This document shows positions 18,661-40,821 of a stretch of 54,709 nucleotides of DNA, one piece after another. Position 1 is the stretch's first letter; each line of letters starts with the position of its first letter. The position numbers and the translations under genes are program-made. The DNA is from a virus. The DNA is taken from IMG/VR virus record IMGVR_UViG_3300009545_000027, positions 1-54,709 of that record; one strand, written 5' to 3'. The notes under the pieces were generated by a model. That model was not told the DNA's origin. It was given only the letters and a program-made list of their open reading frames with translations, and made no database searches.

Positions 18661-19572
18661 ATGGAACACGAACAGAGACTACAAAAACTTGAAAACCTCG
18701 CAATTGCTTGGGTGTACGATGCACTCGGGCGCATTTATGGCATACCGCGTGAACGTGCACTTCGATTGCTTGAAGAAGTGATCGAACTCACACAGGCGCA
18801 CGGGTGCAATCTGAAAATGGTGCATGCACTCGTTGATCATGTGTACGCGCGTCCTGTAGGCACACCGGAAGCTGAATCCGCCGCAGTTGTTTTTGCGTTG
18901 TATGCATATTTCGGGGCAACGCTCCCGAATGACTCGGTTGACGTTGTCGGGTACGGCGAACTGTCGCGCATTACGCAAATACCGCGTGAACGGTTAATGG
19001 AAAGTTTGAATCGCAAGATCAATGCAGGGCTTGTTTCGGTTTGTGCTAACTGTGACACCCGGATTGAATTTTGCAGGTGTTCGCGACTGCCGTTAGATCT
19101 GCCGTTAGATCAACTCGCGGACATAATGCAGAAATTCAAAACAGGTTCCGAAACCCTGAACCAAAAAATTTCGCTGTATACGCCGTCTGCCGATATGTCC
19201 GATGCATATGCATTCAAGACAGGTGGCATCCGTTCGCACAAAGCGCCGCGTTTTGATTTGATTCCGCGTGTGTTCCTCGCATGCATTGCAGACCGCCTAG
19301 AACTTGGACTTGCCAAAAAAGGCGACCGTGAAATCTTGCAGCGGTATCGACGTGGCACGCCGGAAGAACGCACCGCAATTCTTGCCGATGAGTCTTGGTG
19401 GACTGAAATGAAAAACCACCTGCAAGAGCATGTAACCGCGTTGATCACAGGGGAACTCGGGTCTGAAAGTCTGTGGGGACATGTCGGTGCAATTGCGTGG
19501 AATGCGTTGATGTTCGCGTGGCGGTATGCCGAAACCGCAAAGTCCGGGGACGAACCACCTGTAAAACGGTGA
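18661..19572 (+). CDS. MazG-like / dATP-dGTP diphosphohydrolase-type fusion
   Basis: The 303-residue protein appears to have three parts: residues 1-110 MazG-like (EEVIELTQAHG with the EExxE metal-binding style and ESAAVVFALYAYFG); a short Cys cluster CANC...CRCS; and a C-terminal part RSHKAPRFDLIPRVFLACIA with later NHLQEHVTALITGEL and HVGAIAWNALMFAWR, like the phage dATP/dGTP diphosphohydrolase domain (DUF5664 type). It probably hydrolyses (deoxy)nucleoside triphosphates to shape the pool for replication, next to ThyX. The family reading is from pattern memory and not tested. Confidence 0.6.
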   Translation: MEHEQRLQKLENLAIAWVYDALGRIYGIPRERALRLLEEVIELTQAHGCNLKMVHALVDHVYARPVGTPEAESAAVVFALYAYFGATLPNDSVDVVGYGELSRITQIPRERLMESLNRKINAGLVSVCANCDTRIEFCRCSRLPLDLPLDQLADIMQKFKTGSETLNQKISLYTPSADMSDAYAFKTGGIRSHKAPRFDLIPRVFLACIADRLELGLAKKGDREILQRYRRGTPEERTAILADESWWTEMKNHLQEHVTALITGELGSESLWGHVGAIAWNALMFAWRYAETAKSGDEPPVKR

Positions 19573-24005: not shown

Positions 24006-25796
24006 ATGCCGCGCAACCTTTTCGGCGACATCGTTTCAGATCCAAAACGAAAAGGCGCGGCTTTAGGGTGCCTATCGTGTCCGCTTGACAAACTCAAATC
24101 CGAAGGCGTCGTCAAAAATATCCGCGTCGATTCCGTAAAAGGTCGACACGTTTTCATTTGGGGTTTGTGTCCGGACGCGCTTGAAAACGAAACAGGCGAG
24201 GAACTAGGCGGACGTGCAGGCGCAATACTTTGGAAAGCATTACGCGCGGTAGGAATCGAAAGAAGCGACTGCGACGTTCAGAACGTCGTCAGGTGCCACC
24301 CCTATTATTCCGATGCAGTAGAACCGCCCGCAAAGGCGTTAAAGTGCTGTTCTATTTACAATGCGGAAGCGCTTGAACGTGGTGGCGGACGTGCCGACGT
24401 TCATCTAGTTCTCGGGAAGCTTGCCGGGAAGCAACTTCTAGGGAATCGATTAGCGCGTGCCAAGAAGTCGGCAGTGTGGCATGACGAATGGGGTGCGTAC
24501 GTCGTCGTAACGGAACACCCGCAAAAGCTGTTGCGTGCAGGTTCGAAAGGATGGCTGTACAAACAGTTTCGCGACAAGATGCGTGCGGTTGCCGCGATCT
24601 TGAATAACCCCGGACGATTCGGGTACGTGAAAGCGCAAGACTATCGTGCAGTTGAAACGCCTGCACAGATGGATTTTTTGAAAGCTGAAATCAAGAGGCA
24701 TGCGGCGCGTGGCGAACGTGTTAGCGTTGACATTGAAGACGACGTCATCGACGGCAAACGCATTATCTTGATGGTCGGGTTCGGAATGGGGGCATACGAC
24801 GTTAATGGCACCTGGAAAGGTAAAGCCCGGTGTGTCGTTCTCAATCATCCGGAAGCAGATCAATCACCCGAACGTATCGACCCGCTAGTTGAATCGTTGT
24901 GCGAGATTTTCGAAGATGCATCGATTTTGAAAGTTTTCCATCACGGTTCTTACGACGTGCCTGTCGTGCGCAAATCTTTTGGTTGTGTGATTCGTGGTTA
25001 TGATTTCGACACACAGTATGCGGCGTACCTGTGGTATCCGCACTTGCGCGCCTATGGTCTCGACGCACTTGTCGGGCACTTTCATGTTGAATTTGGCGAT
25101 TACAAGCTTATGGTGGCGAAGTGGATGCCACACCTGTCGAATGCACCGCTTGACACACTGATCACGTACAACTGTGCGGACTGCGATTTAACGAAGCGAA
25201 TCGAAGCCGCATCACGTGATCACATCGTTCACCCGCTACTTCAGATCTACATTCACTGTGCCTTTACACTCGGTGCAATGGAAAAACGCGGACCGATTCT
25301 TGATTACGAATCGCATGCCAAGATCGCGGATGTCGTGCGCCCGCGTGTCGAGAAGTTGAAGCGCGATTTGCAGCAAATGAGCGGTGATCCAAATTTCAAC
25401 CCGAACACTCCGCAACACATCGCGAAACTGCTGTTCGACAAATTGAATCTGCGGCAGATTGCAGGACGGTCGACAGGCAAAGACATCTTGACCGAATTGA
25501 TTGCAACCGCGCGGACGAAAGCCGGAAAGCACGCCTGTACGCTGGTTCGTGATTATCGTCAAATTTCAAAGATGGATTCAACTTATTTGGTAGGGTTCAT
25601 GCGGTCCGCCGAATTGCATGACGGGCAACTCCGTACAGTTTGGTGGTTGACAGGTGCGGCAACCGGGCGCTTGCGGTCCGGACGTTCCGACAAAGCGGAA
25701 GTCGAAGAAGGTGTGATCAACTTTCAAAACCTGCACGGCAACCCGCTATTGAAGAACTTGCTAGTCAGCGACGTTGATTGGAGAAAAGCTCTGTGA
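24006..25796 (+). CDS. Split family A DNA polymerase, N-part: UDG-like + 3'-5' exonuclease + polymerase start
   Basis: The 596-residue protein carries: (1) residues about 20-200, a family 4/5 uracil-DNA-glycosylase-like domain with Cys 22, 25, 97 and 114 in the iron-sulphur spacing, NVVRCHP, LGKLAGKQLLG and TEHPQKLLR; (2) from about 238, a DEDDy proofreading exonuclease (VDIED, HHGSYD, YNCADCD); (3) a PolA thumb/palm with TGRLRSG and NLLVSDVDWRKAL. It stops exactly where motif A should begin. The rest is at 28967-29875. It starts directly after the clamp stop. The two halves presumably assemble, as known for split T4-like polymerases of family B. Confidence 0.88.
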   Translation: MPRNLFGDIVSDPKRKGAALGCLSCPLDKLKSEGVVKNIRVDSVKGRHVFIWGLCPDALENETGEELGGRAGAILWKALRAVGIERSDCDVQNVVRCHPYYSDAVEPPAKALKCCSIYNAEALERGGGRADVHLVLGKLAGKQLLGNRLARAKKSAVWHDEWGAYVVVTEHPQKLLRAGSKGWLYKQFRDKMRAVAAILNNPGRFGYVKAQDYRAVETPAQMDFLKAEIKRHAARGERVSVDIEDDVIDGKRIILMVGFGMGAYDVNGTWKGKARCVVLNHPEADQSPERIDPLVESLCEIFEDASILKVFHHGSYDVPVVRKSFGCVIRGYDFDTQYAAYLWYPHLRAYGLDALVGHFHVEFGDYKLMVAKWMPHLSNAPLDTLITYNCADCDLTKRIEAASRDHIVHPLLQIYIHCAFTLGAMEKRGPILDYESHAKIADVVRPRVEKLKRDLQQMSGDPNFNPNTPQHIAKLLFDKLNLRQIAGRSTGKDILTELIATARTKAGKHACTLVRDYRQISKMDSTYLVGFMRSAELHDGQLRTVWWLTGAATGRLRSGRSDKAEVEEGVINFQNLHGNPLLKNLLVSDVDWRKAL

Positions 25797-26677: not shown

Positions 26678-28951
26678 ATGAAAGAGTACGGAAAGTTTTT
26701 AGAAAAGAAGTCTCAAAATGCATTACCTGTCGGATTTGCTTTTAATGGTGATTTCAGTCCTCTTACGATGGACTTTCAAAAAGCATCTGTACGGTGGGCA
26801 GTAGAACGCGGGCGCGCCGCAATATTTGGGGATTGCGGACTTGGAAAGACACTCATTGAACTTGAATGGGGACGTCAGATCTACCAGCATACGAAAAAGC
26901 CTGTTATTGTCTACACACCGTTAGCTGTGGCTGATCAGATGGTTGCGGAAGGGAACAAGTTTGGAATTCATATCGTTCATGCTCCGCATCCGTCAAAACT
27001 CGGCAAGTTCAGCGCAACTAATTACGAAAAGCTTCATCTCTTTGATCATCCTGAAATGTTTGGCGGCATCATTCTCGATGAGAGTTCGATTCTAAAATCT
27101 TATGATGGGAAAACACGAACTGCGTTGATCGAATATGCCAAACAGATTCCGTATCGTCTGTGTGCTACAGCAACACCAGCACCGAACGATTACATGGAAC
27201 TTGGAAATCATGCAGAGTTTCTTGATATTTTGACGCGATCTGAAATGCTTGCTACGTTTTTCACGCATGACGGTGGTGAGACATCTAAATGGCGTCTTAA
27301 AGGTCATGCGAAAAAGCCATATTGGTCATGGGTGGCGAAGTGGGCACTTGCGTTTCGTAAACCGTCTGACTTAGGGTTTCCTGATACAGGGTTTGATCTT
27401 CCAAAGTTGAACATGGTCCCCGTTGAAGTTGAAGATAATTTCAACTCACGAGGCCGTCTTTTTACGGTCACGGCGGAAACTCTGCAAGAACGTCGGGAAG
27501 TGCGGGCGCAAACAGTTGGCGCACGTGTTGCCGCATGCGCCGAACTAGTGGCCAAAGAACCGAATGAACCTTGGATAATTTGGTGCAACCTTAACGCGGA
27601 AGGTGACGCACTTCAAAAAGCGATTCCAGGATCGGTGCAGGTTTCAGGAAGTGATCCCGAAGCAGTGAAGGAAAAGCGTTTGAACGACTTCACGGCGCGA
27701 CGTATAAAAGTTCTCATCACGAAACCTACGATTGCAGGATTTGGGATGAACTGGCAGCACTGTGCCCGTATCGCTTTTGTCGGGCTTAGTGACTCTTATG
27801 AACAGTTTTATCAAGCGGTCCGTCGGTGTTGGCGGTTTGGTCAAAAACGTCCGGTAGACGCGTATGTGATTACGAGTAGTTCTGAAGGGTCGGTCGTCCG
27901 CAATATCGAACGTAAGGAAAAACAGTCCCGTGAAATGATGAATGGGTTAGTCGAAAACATGAAGGATGAAATGCAGAAAAATTTAACGCAAGCGGTGCAT
28001 CAGGCAGATGCATATGAAACTGCTGTAAAGAAGTCCGCCAACTTCACCGCGCATCTCGGAGATTCGGTTGAAGTGCTGAAATCCGTTCCGGATAATTCGA
28101 TCGGGTACACGATTTTCAGTCCACCATTTGCGTCTCTCTACACGTACACGAGCAGTAATCGTGATATGGGAAACTGCAAAACTGAAGAAGAGTTTTTCGA
28201 GCACTTCGAATTCCTAGCTCCGCATCTTTTGCGCACCCTGCAAGCGGGACGTCTTCTTTCGATGCATTGCATGAATCTGCCGACATCGAAGTCGTATCAC
28301 GGGTATATTGGAATTCGTGACTTTCGCGGACGTCTGATTAAGATGTTTGAAGACGTCGGTTTCATTTTTCATTCAGAGGTCGTCATCTGGAAAGATCCGC
28401 TCGTGGCGATGCAACGAACGAAGGCATTAGGGTTGCTCCACAAGCAGATCGTAAAAGATTCGGCGATGTGCCGTCAGGGAATACCCGATTACCTCATTAC
28501 GTTTCGAAAACCGGGTGAAAACTTAAAACGGGTGGCGCACGCACCGAATGGGTTTCGGCGTTTTGTTGGTGATGACCCGCCGAAAGCTTCAGTACATGCT
28601 GATGCAAAAAAGAACAAGTTTTCTCATGAAGTGTGGCAACGGTACGCATCACCTGTGTGGATGGATATCAATCCGTCAAAAACACTTCAGTTCCGTGCAG
28701 CACGCGAAAAGGACGATGAACGGCATATCTGCCCGCTGCAATTAGAAGTCATTGAACGAGCATTAGAACTGTGGACGCTTCCGGGGGATCTTGTTTTATC
28801 ACCGTTTATGGGGATCGGGTCCGAGGGTTATGTGGCCTTGCAGACCAAACGAAAGTTCTTTGGTGTAGAACTGAAAAAGTCTTATTGGAATCTGGCAGTC
28901 AAGAACCTCGAACACGCGTCGGTGACATCGGCACGAAAGAAACTTTTCTAG
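26678..28951 (+). CDS. SNF2-like helicase fused to N4-cytosine-type DNA methyltransferase
   Basis: The 757-residue protein has an SF2/SNF2-like ATPase in residues 1-430 (DFQKASVRWAVE, Walker A FGDCGLGKT, motif II DESS, TATPAP, motif VI QAVRRCWRFGQKRP) and a beta-class amino methyltransferase in 460-757 (motif IV FSPPFASLYTY, then LSPFMGIGSEGYVAL as motif I, and FFGVELKKSYW). SPPF suggests N4-cytosine, but N6-adenine is possible. Such fusions occur in phages and may protect or mark DNA. The gene is visibly more AT-rich in codon choice than its neighbours, suggesting recent gain. It sits inside the split polymerase. Confidence 0.85.
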   Translation: MKEYGKFLEKKSQNALPVGFAFNGDFSPLTMDFQKASVRWAVERGRAAIFGDCGLGKTLIELEWGRQIYQHTKKPVIVYTPLAVADQMVAEGNKFGIHIVHAPHPSKLGKFSATNYEKLHLFDHPEMFGGIILDESSILKSYDGKTRTALIEYAKQIPYRLCATATPAPNDYMELGNHAEFLDILTRSEMLATFFTHDGGETSKWRLKGHAKKPYWSWVAKWALAFRKPSDLGFPDTGFDLPKLNMVPVEVEDNFNSRGRLFTVTAETLQERREVRAQTVGARVAACAELVAKEPNEPWIIWCNLNAEGDALQKAIPGSVQVSGSDPEAVKEKRLNDFTARRIKVLITKPTIAGFGMNWQHCARIAFVGLSDSYEQFYQAVRRCWRFGQKRPVDAYVITSSSEGSVVRNIERKEKQSREMMNGLVENMKDEMQKNLTQAVHQADAYETAVKKSANFTAHLGDSVEVLKSVPDNSIGYTIFSPPFASLYTYTSSNRDMGNCKTEEEFFEHFEFLAPHLLRTLQAGRLLSMHCMNLPTSKSYHGYIGIRDFRGRLIKMFEDVGFIFHSEVVIWKDPLVAMQRTKALGLLHKQIVKDSAMCRQGIPDYLITFRKPGENLKRVAHAPNGFRRFVGDDPPKASVHADAKKNKFSHEVWQRYASPVWMDINPSKTLQFRAAREKDDERHICPLQLEVIERALELWTLPGDLVLSPFMGIGSEGYVALQTKRKFFGVELKKSYWNLAVKNLEHASVTSARKKLF

Positions 28952-28966
28952 GTTGTGGAGGCGTTC

Positions 28967-29875
28967 TTGAACTCGGAGATCTTAGAGTTAACTACATTCC
29001 TAGCTTTCGATTTTTCACAGGCAGAATTAAGAATGCTAGCCGAGATCAGTGGCGACGCATTGTTGATCAAACAATTCCAAGAAGCGGCGGCAGATCCGGG
29101 AAACCCGTTGAAGGATATCCATTGTCAGGTCGGGCATTCAATGACAGGTTGGGACCACATCAAGATCAAGGAATCAAAGTCGACGCGCAAGGTCGTCAAG
29201 AACATTCAGTTCGGGCTTGTTTTTGGAAAACAAAAGAAGGGCATGTACGACTACGTCGTGCAGAAGATTCGCGAAATCGACGGCGAAAAAGCGGACCTGA
29301 CAGGCATCACCCGCGAGTTCATCGAAAAGTGCGTTGATGCGTACTTCGCCCGGTATAAAGGCGTTGCGCGGTACATGAAGCGGATGCAAGAACAGGTCGA
29401 GACCGACGGATACGTTGATACGCTTTATGGGTTCCGTCGACAGATTTTCGAAGATGATGCGCGTGATACCTTCATGGGCAATCAAGCAATCAATACGCCT
29501 GTGCAAGGGTCTGCACACCAACTGTTGTTGATCGCGCTTGCCCTTCTTCACATGAAGCCGAAGACATACGCGTTACTGCAAAATGTCTTGATGGAAGTGC
29601 ATGACGCGCTTGTGTTCTTAGTGAAGGTTCGCGATTTACCAGCAGCATTCTTGCAGGGAAAACACCTTCTTGAACGTGGTGTCGTCGACTACACCGAACG
29701 GCATTTCAAGCGGAAACTAAAGGTCCCACTGCTTGCGGAAGCTGAAGCAGGTTTCTGTTATGGCACGTGTGTCGAGTATTCAGGAGAACCGCTTGACGAG
29801 TGGTTAGCGAAATGGCGGAAGAACCACACCGACAAGGAAGCCGAAGCATGGAAGAAGCTTTTGTCAGCGGCATGA
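28967..29875 (+). CDS. Split family A DNA polymerase, C-part: motifs A, B and C
   Basis: Start is placed at TTG 28967, because GGAGG lies five bases upstream; the frame is open from GTG 28955. The product of about 302 residues begins just before motif A (FLAFDFSQAELRMLAE), continues with the O-helix RKVVKNIQFGLVFG (motif B) and motif C MEVHDALVF. Compared with E. coli PolI, the DE pair of motif C is DA, and the O-helix Tyr before Gly is Phe. These residues are the catalytic palm and fingers; the protein cannot work without the N-part at 24006-25796. Confidence 0.9.
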   Translation: MNSEILELTTFLAFDFSQAELRMLAEISGDALLIKQFQEAAADPGNPLKDIHCQVGHSMTGWDHIKIKESKSTRKVVKNIQFGLVFGKQKKGMYDYVVQKIREIDGEKADLTGITREFIEKCVDAYFARYKGVARYMKRMQEQVETDGYVDTLYGFRRQIFEDDARDTFMGNQAINTPVQGSAHQLLLIALALLHMKPKTYALLQNVLMEVHDALVFLVKVRDLPAAFLQGKHLLERGVVDYTERHFKRKLKVPLLAEAEAGFCYGTCVEYSGEPLDEWLAKWRKNHTDKEAEAWKKLLSAA

Positions 29876-35717: not shown

Positions 35718-36134
35718 ATGTGGGTAACGGCGTACGTGGATGCTTCGTTCAAGGAAAAGGGCACGTGGGCGGTTTGGTTGCGGTCCGAAAGCGGGCGCAT
35801 TGTGGAACACGGGCAGTGTCCTGTTGAAGTGTGGGACAACATCCGGGCGGAATTCTACGCGGCAATCAAAGCGGTAGAAATCGCGGTTGAACGTTGGCCA
35901 CACACTACGGGCGTGTTGATTGTTTCAGACTGTCAGACGGTCGTTGACTACACGCCACACCTTGCCGAAGACGCACGCGGAGATCTGCGAACGTTACAAC
36001 GGCAGATTCGGAAAGCACTAGGCGGACGGTTTGTTCGGACGAAGAAGATCAAAGGACATCAGGACCCACGACGCGGCGTCGGTGCATACCTGAACAATCA
36101 AGTCGATAAGCTTGCCGGGAATGCACACCGATGA
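35718..36134 (+). CDS. Ribonuclease H (type 1)
   Basis: The 138-residue protein has the catalytic acidic residues in order: VDASF, AEFYAA, VSDCQTV and LNNQVDKLA, with the handle-like IKGHQDPRR. It removes RNA from RNA-DNA hybrids such as primers. Its stop overlaps the SbcC start. Confidence 0.88.
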   Translation: MWVTAYVDASFKEKGTWAVWLRSESGRIVEHGQCPVEVWDNIRAEFYAAIKAVEIAVERWPHTTGVLIVSDCQTVVDYTPHLAEDARGDLRTLQRQIRKALGGRFVRTKKIKGHQDPRRGVGAYLNNQVDKLAGNAHR

Positions 36135-38209
36135 AAATTATTTCGATTCCGTCTCGTGTTCCTTCGTGGTACGATCCATCAAAACCGGGTTTTGTTCCTC
36201 CGAAAAGTTGGGCAGGTTGCCGGGTTCGAATTACGTTCCGTGCAGGCAATGATGTCGCTAACGAACAGCGTGCCGCCAAAAAGGAAGCTGAAGTAAAGTA
36301 TCCGGGCGCGATTATTACGGTCGTTCCGGAGTTCACGCACAACAACGCGCCGACGTTAGACGCGACCGACGAAGACGTTCTACGCAAGTATCTTGAAGCG
36401 GCAACACTCCCGAAGGGCATAACAATCGACGACGTCATCGGACGCCTAGAACGGATGCTTCCGCAATTAGGTCGTTATGGAATTCAGGGGCTTGTGTTTC
36501 AAAGCTTTGAGTGTGATAACGTCTTAAGCTTCGAACGTGCTGTTGTTGACTTTGAAGTTTCAGGCATGACGTTGATTTCTGGAATCAACCACGATTGGGT
36601 TGACGATGAAGATAGCGACGTGCATTCGAATGGTGCAGGCAAAACCTCGCTTGCAACCTTGCCGTTCGTGCCGTTGTTCGGGCGCACGTTCAAAAATCAG
36701 ACTGATGATGGTTGGGCACGTCAAAGAACTGATGCGACCGCGCGTTTAAACGGAACCTATCTGTTACCGGACGGGCGCAAGCTTCGTGTGGAGCGGACGC
36801 GGCGTCCTGCATTGGTTCGCGTGTTCGTCGATGGTAAAGAGGAAACGATGGCGTCGAAGTCTGAAACACAGGCGCACATTGAACACCTGACTAATCTTTC
36901 ATGGGATGTGCTGAAAAATGCCGTCTACGTGGAACAACGCGAAATCACAGAAATCTTTGGAACTGACAAACAACGCAAGGAACTTCTAGGGCGACTACGC
37001 GGGTTAGAACGCTTTCTTGATGCACAAGCACGTCTGCGGAAGATCTCGACGAAACGTTCACGTGCAATTGCCGAAATCGAAGGTGATGTCGTTGCTACCG
37101 AAGCCGCAATTGCGGAAGTGTCGCGCGGCTTACCTGCACTGCGTGCTGAACTTGAAGCGCTTCCGAAGGTCACGCAGGCGGACGCACGAACCAAAACATA
37201 CGATGTTGGAAATATCGAAGCCGACATCAAAAAGATTGACATTGAAATTGAAGCCGTTTCGGAAGCAGCAGCGGAAGAACGGCGGGTGCATGATCAGCTT
37301 CATTCGCGGCAGTGCGACATAGAAGAACGGGCGGAACGAGAAAAAGCAGCGCTGAAAGATACGCAGGCGTTAGCGGATAAACCATGTCCTACTTGCGGGG
37401 CACCACCGACACCAAAGGCAAGGCGCGCAAACATTGCGTTGCTCAAGGAACAGATTGAAAACACCGAAGCTGATTGGAATTCTCTTGAAGACAAGTTAGT
37501 TAAATCGCGAGCATTGCGGAACTCCCTGGTTGAACGTCTGACAGCATTGCGAAAACGGCGAGGTGAATTAGTGTTGCACCTGTCTGCCGCACGTTTCGAT
37601 GCAGAAAAAGCAAAGCGTGACGCCGAAGCACGTGATCGTCTTGTCGTAATGGTGAATGACCGCGACGCGCGCATCCGAGAATTGACGGCGGCGCTTGTTG
37701 TCCATAAGAAAGCACGTGAAGCGGAAATCGAGGAACGTGATTTTGTTGATTTCTGTGCGGAAACCGTCGGTCGTGATGGACTGCCCGCGTACCTGAATGC
37801 ACTGGCGGAACCAGCGTTAAATCAAGCGGCGGCGCGCTATAGCAGGATTTTTTCTAATGACGAAATCGCAATTGAATTCATTGGCGATGACGTCATTGTT
37901 CGGAACGCACACGGCGGCGAAAACACAAAAGACCAATCTGATGGGGAAATGAAGCTTGCGGCATTGATCACAGTGCTTGCACTTCGTGACGTGCTTGTTC
38001 CGCACAATCTGCTGGTTCTTGACGAACCGTCAAACGGGCTTGATCCTGTTAGCGCCCGCAAGTTTGCACGTGGCTTAAACGACATCGTCGAACGCTTCCG
38101 TCACGTGATCGTGATTAGCCATCACGCCGAATTTCTGAAAAACTTGGCACCTGATAATATTTGGAATGTTGAGAAGACAAATGGAATTTCCCGTATAGTT
38201 GTGGAGTGA
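36131..38209 (+). CDS. sbcC: SbcC/Rad50-type ATPase
   Basis: The 692-residue protein has the SMC-like plan: an N-terminal lobe with Walker A HSNGAGKTSL preceded by an unusual stretch with VDDEDSD; long coiled coils with the zinc hook KPCPTCGAPP in the centre; and a C-terminal lobe with QSDGEMKLAAL (signature) and LLVLDEPSNGLDP (Walker B). It partners the nuclease at 34798 and is of phage size (gp46-like). The first 100 residues before the Walker A segment are unusual and unassigned. Confidence 0.88.
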   Translation: MKIISIPSRVPSWYDPSKPGFVPPKSWAGCRVRITFRAGNDVANEQRAAKKEAEVKYPGAIITVVPEFTHNNAPTLDATDEDVLRKYLEAATLPKGITIDDVIGRLERMLPQLGRYGIQGLVFQSFECDNVLSFERAVVDFEVSGMTLISGINHDWVDDEDSDVHSNGAGKTSLATLPFVPLFGRTFKNQTDDGWARQRTDATARLNGTYLLPDGRKLRVERTRRPALVRVFVDGKEETMASKSETQAHIEHLTNLSWDVLKNAVYVEQREITEIFGTDKQRKELLGRLRGLERFLDAQARLRKISTKRSRAIAEIEGDVVATEAAIAEVSRGLPALRAELEALPKVTQADARTKTYDVGNIEADIKKIDIEIEAVSEAAAEERRVHDQLHSRQCDIEERAEREKAALKDTQALADKPCPTCGAPPTPKARRANIALLKEQIENTEADWNSLEDKLVKSRALRNSLVERLTALRKRRGELVLHLSAARFDAEKAKRDAEARDRLVVMVNDRDARIRELTAALVVHKKAREAEIEERDFVDFCAETVGRDGLPAYLNALAEPALNQAAARYSRIFSNDEIAIEFIGDDVIVRNAHGGENTKDQSDGEMKLAALITVLALRDVLVPHNLLVLDEPSNGLDPVSARKFARGLNDIVERFRHVIVISHHAEFLKNLAPDNIWNVEKTNGISRIVVE

Positions 38210-38219
38210 GGGACCTTTT

Positions 38220-39581
38220 ATGATGAGAAAACCGAAGTTGACGGTACAGCAGACGGTTTTCGGTGATCGTGTGGCACGCAACGAAGACTTTGAACCCGTC
38301 AGCCTTGAAATCGAAACACCGTATGTTTGCCCGAAGTGCGGGCACAGGTGGCGCGGAACAAAGCGAACAAAGCCGCATGTGAAGCGTAATCTTTTCGCAG
38401 TTGAACCCGTACGGGTCCACTACGATTACGAGTGTCCGAAGTGCAGGCACGAATGGAATGGTACAAACCACATCGCAAAAGGGAAAAATGCGGAACTGCG
38501 CCGTATCATTACGGTCGCGGCGGTTGACCGTCCTGCATTCCGAATCCCTAGCATGCAAGAGATCACAGCATCACCGTTTAACGGCGTGTCTGTGGCATCA
38601 CTGTTCAGCGGATGCGGCGGATCGAGTCTAGGGTATCGAATGGCGGGTTGCAAGGTCGTGTATGCGTCTGAATTCGTCGAAGCCGCAGGCGACACATACA
38701 TTGCCAATTTTCCCGATACGTTCCTTGACCGACGTGATATCCGCGAGGTCGACGCGTCCGAAATCTTGAAAACTGCAAATCTGAAAAGGGGCGAACTCGG
38801 GATTCTTGATGGAAGTCCGCCGTGTGCATCTTTTTCAGCGATCGGTGATCGGCAAAAGAACTGGGATGTTGTCAAGAAGTACTCAGACACGAAGCAGCGG
38901 ACCGACGATTTGTTTTTCGAGTACATCCGGATTTTGAAAGTGCTGCGTCCGAAAGCATTTGTCGCCGAAAACGTTGTTGCGTTGTCGCATGGTGCGGCGG
39001 TTGGATATTTCAACATGATTGTTTCGGCGTTGCGGGAATCCGGGTATGATGTCGCGGTTAAGGTTCTTGATGCGCAATGGCTCGGAGTTCCGCAAATGCG
39101 GAAGCGTTTAATCTTCATCGGAACCCGCAAGGATCTGAAGTTGACGCCGACACACCCGCGACCGCTTCCGTACCGCTATTCAATCGAAGATGCGATTCCT
39201 TGGATTAGCGGAACGACTACCGCGCCGTTTGATTTGATCGTCGAACCGGAAACCAAACTTGCGGGCAGTGTTTTGAAAGCGTGGCGCGAAGTCGAACTCG
39301 GCGAATACTCTAAAGCTTATATGAGCTTGATTCGTCCGCGAATAGAAAATCCATGCCCCACAGTTACGGCGTCAATCGGGTTGCAGGCAGCATCACCGAC
39401 GCATCCGTTTGAACCGCGCAAGTTCTCAGTGCAGGAACTAAAGCGGCTTTGCGGATTTCCGGACGACTTCGTTTTAACCGGAACGTTTGCGCAGAAATGC
39501 GAACGTCTAGGGCGTGCAGTTCCACCACCTATGATGAAAATGGTTGCCGAAACAGTTGTCGGTATTTTGAGGAACTTATGA
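38220..39581 (+). CDS. DNA cytosine-C5 methyltransferase, candidate carboxymethyltransferase
   Basis: Start at ATG 38220 behind GAGTGAGGGA; an upstream in-frame GTG (38199) is less likely. The 453-residue protein has two N-terminal zinc ribbons (CPKC 37-40, CPKC 72-75), then all main C5-methyltransferase motifs: I FSGCGGSSLG (129-138), IV GSPPC with catalytic Cys 202, VI ENV, VIII QMRKRLIFIGTR and X. Motif X is LGRAVPPPMM, with Arg 432 in place of the nearly invariant Asn of GNAVP. Work on C5 methyltransferases, recalled here, showed that Lys or Arg at this Asn lets the enzyme use carboxy-SAM and make 5-carboxymethylcytosine. The coupled CmoA-like gene makes this reading attractive. Target sequence unknown. 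Confidence 0.9.
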   Translation: MMRKPKLTVQQTVFGDRVARNEDFEPVSLEIETPYVCPKCGHRWRGTKRTKPHVKRNLFAVEPVRVHYDYECPKCRHEWNGTNHIAKGKNAELRRIITVAAVDRPAFRIPSMQEITASPFNGVSVASLFSGCGGSSLGYRMAGCKVVYASEFVEAAGDTYIANFPDTFLDRRDIREVDASEILKTANLKRGELGILDGSPPCASFSAIGDRQKNWDVVKKYSDTKQRTDDLFFEYIRILKVLRPKAFVAENVVALSHGAAVGYFNMIVSALRESGYDVAVKVLDAQWLGVPQMRKRLIFIGTRKDLKLTPTHPRPLPYRYSIEDAIPWISGTTTAPFDLIVEPETKLAGSVLKAWREVELGEYSKAYMSLIRPRIENPCPTVTASIGLQAASPTHPFEPRKFSVQELKRLCGFPDDFVLTGTFAQKCERLGRAVPPPMMKMVAETVVGILRNL

Positions 39582-40294
39582 AAGACGAAGTTGTTCCGGG
39601 CGCGAAGTGGCAGTTTGACGGCGCGGTAACAGACGCCTTCGATGACATGCTTAAGCGGTCTGTGCCTGATTACGACCGTATGCGGGAACTTTGTTTCCAA
39701 GTCGGACGTCCGCATGTCGACACACTGGCATGTAGTCACGTTCTTGACCTCGGGTGTAGTCGTGGTGAAGCGCTGGTTCGGTTCGTCGATACGTTTGGTG
39801 CTGCAAATAGGTTCATCGGTGTTGACGTATCAGAACCGATGCTAGCGGCGGCGCGTGAACGCTTTGACGGTATGATCAAGGCGGGCGTTGTTCAAATTGC
39901 GAATATGGATATTCGCGATAGGTTTCCTGTCGGTAAATTTTCATTGACGCTTGCGATTTTGACCATTCAGTTCACGCCGATCGAACACCGACAAAAGCTT
40001 TTGCGCCACATTTTCAAATCTACGTTACCGGGTGGCGCATTCATCATGGTGGAAAAGGTCCTCGGTGCAACGCACGAAATTGACGCCGCATTCGTTGACT
40101 GTTATTACGACGAAAAGCGCGCGAACGGTTACACGCAGGAACAGATTGACCGGAAGCGGCTTGCGCTTGAAGGTGTTCTAGTACCTGTTACGGCGGCATG
40201 GAACGAAGACCTATTAAAGGGCGCGGGTTTCCGACAGGTCGATTGCTTTTGGCGACATCTCAATTTTGCAGGGTGGCTTGCGGTGAAAGACTAA
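39578..40294 (+). CDS. CmoA-like carboxy-SAM synthase homologue
   Basis: The 238-residue protein starts at the ATGA overlap with the methyltransferase stop. It matches CmoA along most of its length: WQFDGAVTDAFDDMLKRSVP near the N-terminus, SAM motif VLDLGCSRGEA (55-65), IQFTPIEHRQKLL, PGGAFIMVEK, YYDEKRANGYTQEQIDRKRL, and the ending RHLNFAGWLAVKD. Arg 194 aligns with Arg 199 of E. coli CmoA, recalled as binding the carboxylate of carboxy-SAM. CmoA makes carboxy-SAM from SAM and prephenate for tRNA wobble uridine. No CmoB is visible, so the product is more likely used by the DNA methyltransferase. An ordinary SAM methyltransferase is the alternative. Confidence 0.82.
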   Translation: MKDEVVPGAKWQFDGAVTDAFDDMLKRSVPDYDRMRELCFQVGRPHVDTLACSHVLDLGCSRGEALVRFVDTFGAANRFIGVDVSEPMLAAARERFDGMIKAGVVQIANMDIRDRFPVGKFSLTLAILTIQFTPIEHRQKLLRHIFKSTLPGGAFIMVEKVLGATHEIDAAFVDCYYDEKRANGYTQEQIDRKRLALEGVLVPVTAAWNEDLLKGAGFRQVDCFWRHLNFAGWLAVKD

Positions 40295-40821
40295 TGGATT
40301 TAATCATCGGTATCGATCCCGGACTAGACGGCGCGCTTGCGGCAATTGAAGCAGACACAGGGAGGTTTATTAGTGTGTTTGACCCGCCGACATCACAAGT
40401 GAAATCCGGCAAGAAGATGAAGCGGATTTACCTTGAACCTGCGATGGTTCAGATTTTTGAAAATCTCCAAAACGGTGTCGGGTTTAATGCAGTCCGTACG
40501 AATGAACTTCACAATAGGATTGTTGCGGTCACAATCGAGAACGTGCACGCGATGCCCGGTCAAGGCGTCGTGTCGATGTTCTCAATGGGTAACGGGTTCG
40601 GTCTGTGGTGCGGCATAATCGCAGCATTACGACTGCCTAGTTACCGGGTCGAACCCGCAAAGTGGAAACGCCTTATGGGTATTCAGACTGCGTCCGATAA
40701 GGGCAAGTCGATTCAAATAGCGTCGCGCCTGTTTCCCGCTGCGCCGTTATCCCGCAAGAAGGACGACGGTCGCGCCGAAGCCCTTCTACTTGCGGAGTAT
40801 TGCCGACAGCATCTAATCTAG
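40294..40821 (+). CDS. RuvC-like Holliday junction resolvase
   Basis: Start ATG 40294 overlaps the previous stop. The 175-residue protein has LIIGIDPGLDGALAAIE (first Asp), VTIENVHAMPGQGVVSMFSM (Glu) and KKDDGRAEALLLAEY (last acidic pair), with PAKWKRLMG and KGKSIQIASRLFP as in RuvC-family phage resolvases. It would cut junctions before packaging. It ends against a convergent minus-strand gene (4-base overlap). Confidence 0.85.
   Translation: MDLIIGIDPGLDGALAAIEADTGRFISVFDPPTSQVKSGKKMKRIYLEPAMVQIFENLQNGVGFNAVRTNELHNRIVAVTIENVHAMPGQGVVSMFSMGNGFGLWCGIIAALRLPSYRVEPAKWKRLMGIQTASDKGKSIQIASRLFPAAPLSRKKDDGRAEALLLAEYCRQHLI

Follow-up and report, generated by a model that had tools for sequence, protein, structure and literature searches.

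The window, the whole 54.7-kb stretch of viral DNA analysed here, contains a cytosine C5-methyltransferase gene that overlaps a homologue of cmoA, and this raises the question of whether the phage makes carboxy-SAM and uses it to modify cytosine. We assign the pair to CmoA-CmoX DNA carboxymethylation with a probability of about 0.9. This assignment by homology rests on the anatomy of the genes, their intact motifs, a top structural match that is a proven CmoX, and the linkage between a motif X arginine and CmoA. The sequence-only reading had likewise proposed that the phage makes carboxy-SAM and uses it to carboxymethylate its own cytosines. The proposal is supported by analogy: the chemistry has been shown for homologues from Synechococcus phage S-B43, and the S-B43 enzyme structure (8YF3) is the best match of the window methyltransferase.

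The S-B43 system was demonstrated experimentally by Yang et al. (Nat Commun, December 2025; PMC12783734). CmoA of this phage makes carboxy-SAM, CmoX makes 5-carboxymethylcytosine (5cxmC) at GC, a modification that blocks HhaI, and CmoY adds glycine to convert 5cxmC to 5gcxmC (PMC12783734). The structure 8YF3 shows S-B43 CmoX (SpCmoX) with bound carboxy-SAM. Arg350 of motif X contacts the carboxylate, the R350N variant is inactive, and the wild-type enzyme uses only carboxy-SAM and does not accept SAM at all (PMC12783734). A basic residue in place of the motif X asparagine also allows carboxy-SAM use in the engineered M.MpeI N374K (PMC12783734). The survey in the same study counted 5,615 CmoX candidates, 4,257 CmoA and 2,251 ligase genes (PMC12783734). 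The view of 5cxmC as solely an unnatural base, held by the sequence-only reading, is outdated, as CmoX of S-B43 makes this base (PMC12783734). The chemistry and the gene pairing have thus been public since December 2025, and the window pair opens no new class.

We assessed the methyltransferase gene first by its motifs. This cmoX-like gene, a candidate DNA cytosine C5-carboxymethyltransferase, lies on the plus strand at 38220..39581 (ATG at 38220, stop ending at 39581; 453 aa) and matches PF00145 (E = 1.5e-53). The catalytic SPPC motif (38814..38825, plus strand) places the nucleophile Cys202 at the position of SpCmoX Cys98, which is invariant in the alignment. Glu250 of motif VI (ENV; 38967..38969, plus strand) is invariant among relatives, and QxRxR is intact at residues 292-296. 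Motif X reads ERLGRAVPPP, with Arg432 (codon 39513-39515, plus strand) aligned to SpCmoX Arg350, the residue for the carboxylate of carboxy-SAM. The earlier description of a C5-methyltransferase with LGRAVPPP and Arg432 is therefore accurate in its coordinates, frame and catalytic motifs.

The same protein was compared with known structures. When all PDB chains were searched by sequence, 8YF3 was the best match (E = 1.2e-59), and the alignment pairs the catalytic cysteine and the motif X arginine of the two enzymes. We also modeled the protein with AlphaFold2 (mean pLDDT 83), using 29 aligned relatives as input, and Foldseek again ranked 8YF3 first for the model (E = 3.6e-29; rmsd 6.7; TM-score by target, 0.76), with M.HaeIII and other C5-methyltransferases behind it. 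The window protein thus has the two features by which the paper defining CmoX searched for it, SPPC and an arginine at the R350 position, and a C5-methyltransferase fold nearest to SpCmoX by both sequence and structure. Because of the E values against PF00145, 8YF3, 1im8 and 4gek, the identities of the methyltransferase and of its CmoA neighbor are beyond chance.

A degenerate or inactive copy was also considered, since the window CmoX departs from its relatives at conserved positions and its ParB-like partner is lost. At otherwise near-invariant positions it has Asp216 for Gly and Val217 for Lys, and it reads ENVVALSHG where relatives near-invariantly have ENVSGLVKG. Its branch in the tree is fairly long (0.72). 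Despite the changes at 216-217 and 253-261 and the branch length, we consider loss of function very improbable: the cmoX and cmoA frames are intact and overlap in an operon-like run, the catalytic and cofactor motifs are all kept, and the methyltransferase domain is predicted mostly at high confidence by AlphaFold2.

The second gene, a homologue of cmoA encoding a putative carboxy-SAM synthase, spans 39578..40294 on the plus strand (ATG at 39578, stop ending at 40294; 238 aa). It begins within an ATGA at 39578..39581 (plus strand) that joins the cmoX stop to the cmoA start, so the four-base overlap reported before is real. Its best PDB hits are CmoA/YecO structures (1im8, E = 9.8e-30; 4gek, E = 2e-26), and the search matched it to the E. 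coli and H. influenzae CmoA proteins. It resembles CmoA along its full length, ahead of other SAM methyltransferases, and the protein also matches PHROG 4752. TIGR00740 scored far above every other NCBIfam model, at 146.8 bits for the window protein compared to 115.6 for the biochemically proven SpCmoA. Neither the window protein nor the active SpCmoA reaches the equivalog cut-off of 193.3, which was set on bacterial enzymes and excludes no phage CmoA because proven SpCmoA itself scores 115.6.

Arg194 of the window CmoA (40157..40159, plus strand) aligns with Arg199 of E. coli CmoA, as the sequence-only reading had stated. In the crystal structure, Arg199 forms a salt bridge with the carboxy-SAM carboxylate (PMC3663124). 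We considered this residue as a sign of carboxy-SAM synthesis in general and rejected it, because it is absent from SpCmoA and from the majority of phage homologues. Because proven SpCmoA carries Glu at this position, alignment indicates that Arg199 is not diagnostic and not generally required. We compared 50 CmoA sequences after dereplication (homologues from loci L001-L139, SpCmoA and the window): 16 carry Arg199, and none of these 16 has Arg or Lys at position 207 (E. coli numbering). Arg or Lys at 207 occurs in 29 of the 34 sequences without Arg199, which mostly have Glu and include SpCmoA. The window CmoA is of the Arg199 type. One possible reading of this pattern is that most phage CmoA proteins have the carboxylate-binding residue shifted by eight positions, or two turns of a helix.

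The linkage between the motif X residue and CmoA was assessed by scanning viral contigs with the window methyltransferase and reading the residue aligned with Arg432 at each of the 80 loci obtained. We observed 38 Arg, 36 Met and 6 Asn. CmoA was present at 38/38 Arg-type loci compared to 0/42 Met- or Asn-type loci. After dereplication at 70% identity the figures were 22/22 and 0/9 (Fisher P = 5e-8); these counts and the P value overstate independence, as the sequences are related. In a second collection, of bacterial and archaeal genome contigs, CmoA accompanied 34/37 Arg-type enzymes and 0/20 others. Of the three Arg-type exceptions, two lie near a contig edge; in the remaining one, CmoA is encoded at another place in the genome. 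Whole Asn- and Met-type records of up to 82 kb contained no CmoA, and the S-B43 and TurkishDelight controls were detected. A search anchored on CmoA gave the same picture: each CmoA locus with a methyltransferase gene has an Arg-type one, next to CmoA.

In the tree, one group of Asn-type enzymes (L014) and one of Met-type enzymes (L037) are nested inside the Arg set, both lacking CmoA, and several branches are weakly supported. The tree shows just a few Arg/CmoA switches. In these sequences the motif X arginine appears to switch together with CmoA. The sequence-only reading had suggested looking for the same pairing in other phages and had named GRAVP enzymes regularly lacking a CmoA partner as the contrary pattern; we found the pairing at 38 viral loci and did not see the contrary pattern, as CmoA goes with the Arg-type enzymes in both collections (38/38 and 34/37). 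This comparative test independently supports the motif X arginine as a mark of carboxy-SAM use.

These data bear on a second alternative, in which the window enzyme is an ordinary 5-methylcytosine methyltransferase with a chance arginine in motif X, and CmoA supplies carboxy-SAM for tRNA wobble modification through a host CmoB. Bacterial CmoA does serve tRNA cmo5U synthesis. In vivo, CmoX can also be supplied by the CmoA of E. coli (PMC12783734), so the tRNA and DNA uses share a cofactor. We nevertheless regard this alternative as very improbable. Arg432 is invariant among 29 aligned Arg-type relatives and tracks the presence of CmoA almost perfectly, and wild-type SpCmoX rejects SAM (PMC12783734). 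The record contains no CmoB and no tRNA genes. An Rfam search of the window gave no match.

In the CmoA-CmoX reading, CmoA would carboxylate SAM with prephenate to give carboxy-SAM. CmoX would flip out the target cytosine, Cys202 would attack C6, and the carboxymethyl group of carboxy-SAM would be moved onto C5. Arg432 would hold the carboxylate and favor carboxy-SAM over SAM. The phage DNA would then bear 5cxmC at some motif, which would probably block host restriction enzymes. By analogy with the S-B43 system, we infer that the pair is active in this phage and that the modification probably protects against host restriction.

The window CmoX carries an N-terminal extension that may be related to a missing partner. 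The gene directly upstream of CmoX in most relatives encodes a ParB-like protein that ends in a CPKC zinc-ribbon tail; we found no match to a ParB-like gene in the window. CmoX residues 18-48 (38271..38363, plus strand) form a zinc-ribbon-like segment with the motif VCPKCGHRW that is homologous to this tail: blastp against a small database aligned it with many ParB tails at 45-54% over stretches of 25-31 aa (lowest E = 2.7e-5). A second zinc-ribbon-like segment, ECPKCRHEW, at residues 66-84 (38415..38471, plus strand) gave weak matches to ParB tails and a Zn_ribbon_8 match below cut-off. AlphaFold2 predicted a beta hairpin in each region (E33-36/E43-46 and E66-71/E78-83) at moderate to low pLDDT. 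We infer that the ParB domain appears to have been lost and that its zinc-ribbon tail was fused to CmoX and doubled.

We also searched for a ligase that might act on the carboxymethyl group. No CmoY-type ligase was found in the 54.7-kb window using the Asn_synthase family and queries with SpCmoY and the TurkishDelight glutamine amidotransferase, and the record is incomplete. Pfam searches of most other window proteins gave no ligase. The record is linear and has no recognized terminase, portal or capsid gene, so the absence of CmoY is unproven. Because no CmoY was found in these 54.7 kb, and the record is incomplete, we file the window as CmoA-CmoX and not as a full CmoA-CmoX-CmoY hypermodification system.

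The same pair may therefore make 5cxmC as an intermediate only, to which an amine is then coupled, either by a ligase of the CmoY or another family encoded beyond the 54.7 kb sequenced or by an enzyme of the host. We rate this possibility a little short of even. S-B43 phage DNA shows the glycine amide and not bare 5cxmC (PMC12783734), the linear record with no recognized terminase, portal or capsid gene implies that genes are absent from it, and CmoY-like genes accompany CmoX and CmoA in 8/38 Arg-type viral loci and in some close relatives (L091, L094 and TurkishDelight). Yet no Asn-synthase-type ligase was found in the window by the family or the two CmoY queries, and none adjoins the pair. 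Most Arg-type relatives also have no nearby ligase, and 21/25 whole records searched, some of 72-82 kb, have no PF00733 match, though these records may be fragments. Clustering of neighboring ORFs around Arg-type pairs yielded no recurrent third modification gene; the neighbors that recur resemble genes for packaging or structure, terminase and portal among them. We propose, tentatively and with the odds somewhat against it, that bare 5cxmC is the finished base here and in many ligase-less relatives, and that all that remains of the ParB-like partner and its role in DNA targeting is the duplicated zinc-ribbon tail fused to CmoX. As a compact two-gene version with no detected ligase or ParB-like gene, the window pair is a simple test object for asking if bare 5cxmC by itself protects phage DNA.

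Compared to S-B43, the window has a motif X arginine CmoX with all catalytic residues (41% identical) and an adjacent CmoA on the same strand. The gene order differs, being CmoA-CmoY-CmoX in S-B43 and CmoX-CmoA in the window, where no CmoY was found in the incomplete 54.7-kb record. The window CmoX differs from that of S-B43 by its zinc-ribbon-like N-terminal extension of about 100 aa, and the window CmoA is of the E. coli Arg199 type whereas SpCmoA has Glu. SpCmoX targets GC; the window enzyme need not share this target, as the region between motifs VIII and IX is unlike that of SpCmoX in the alignment. Streptomyces phage TurkishDelight (L082; ParB-CmoX-ligase-CmoA) has a CmoX 50% identical to the window's, with GRAVP and a CmoA homologue close by, but it differs in having two ParB-like genes, a glutamine-amidotransferase-type ligase and a CmoA without Arg199. 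Pseudomonas phage PaBG (L084) has a CmoX with GRSVP (43% identical) adjoining a CmoA with Arg199, but also a separate upstream ParB-like gene with a zinc-ribbon tail and a downstream CmoY-like asparagine synthase. M.MpeI N374K shares a basic residue at the motif X asparagine, engineered as Lys in a CG-specific enzyme, whereas the Arg of the window enzyme is natural and a CmoA is encoded beside it. The E. coli CmoA-CmoB pathway for tRNA cmo5U shares a CmoA homologue with the carboxylate-binding arginine; unlike that pathway, the window has no CmoB, and its CmoA is paired instead with a homologue of DNA cytosine methyltransferases.

The window pair lies within a replication and recombination run, and we treat its two neighbors as context outside the modification system: an SbcC-like ATPase gene upstream (36131..38209, plus strand; profile and phage-collection searches) and a RuvC-like Holliday junction resolvase gene downstream (40294..40821, plus strand; PHROG 1770, E = 7e-31) that overlaps cmoA by 1 base. 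In many relatives, genes named terminase-like from their sequence, not by family search, lie directly downstream of CmoA. A search with the SbcC-like protein found no near relatives, the phage collection giving distant hits only; because no near relatives turned up, no host could be assigned and no empty, cassette-free site was identified.

Other features were observed in the window and among the relatives. Two genes about 3.1 kb apart, at 24006-25796 and 28955-29875, together encode a split family A DNA polymerase that has a UDG-like N-terminal domain; two small ORFs and a fusion of an SNF2 helicase and an N6/N4 DNA methyltransferase (26678-28951) lie between them. A dATP/dGTP diphosphohydrolase N-terminal domain (PF18909) is encoded at 18661-19569, right after a ThyX-like gene. 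The large Met set at motif X (GMSVPP; L037-L038, L046-L080, L140-L157) is spread over phages as well as bacterial genomes; many of these loci have an upstream ParB-like gene, but CmoA is lacking. In Erwinia phage Yoloswag, CmoX (L086:4082-6190) appears from its sequence to have an intein directly before the SPPC catalytic cysteine, and CmoA sits elsewhere in the genome. Two Verrucomicrobia MAGs, JAKQDD01 and JAOSKK01, have six or seven CmoX loci each (L103, L104, L106, L112, L116, L124 and L117, L119, L122, L123, L126, L139, L159), nearly all with an adjoining CmoA; these multiples would represent repeated prophages or another mobile element.
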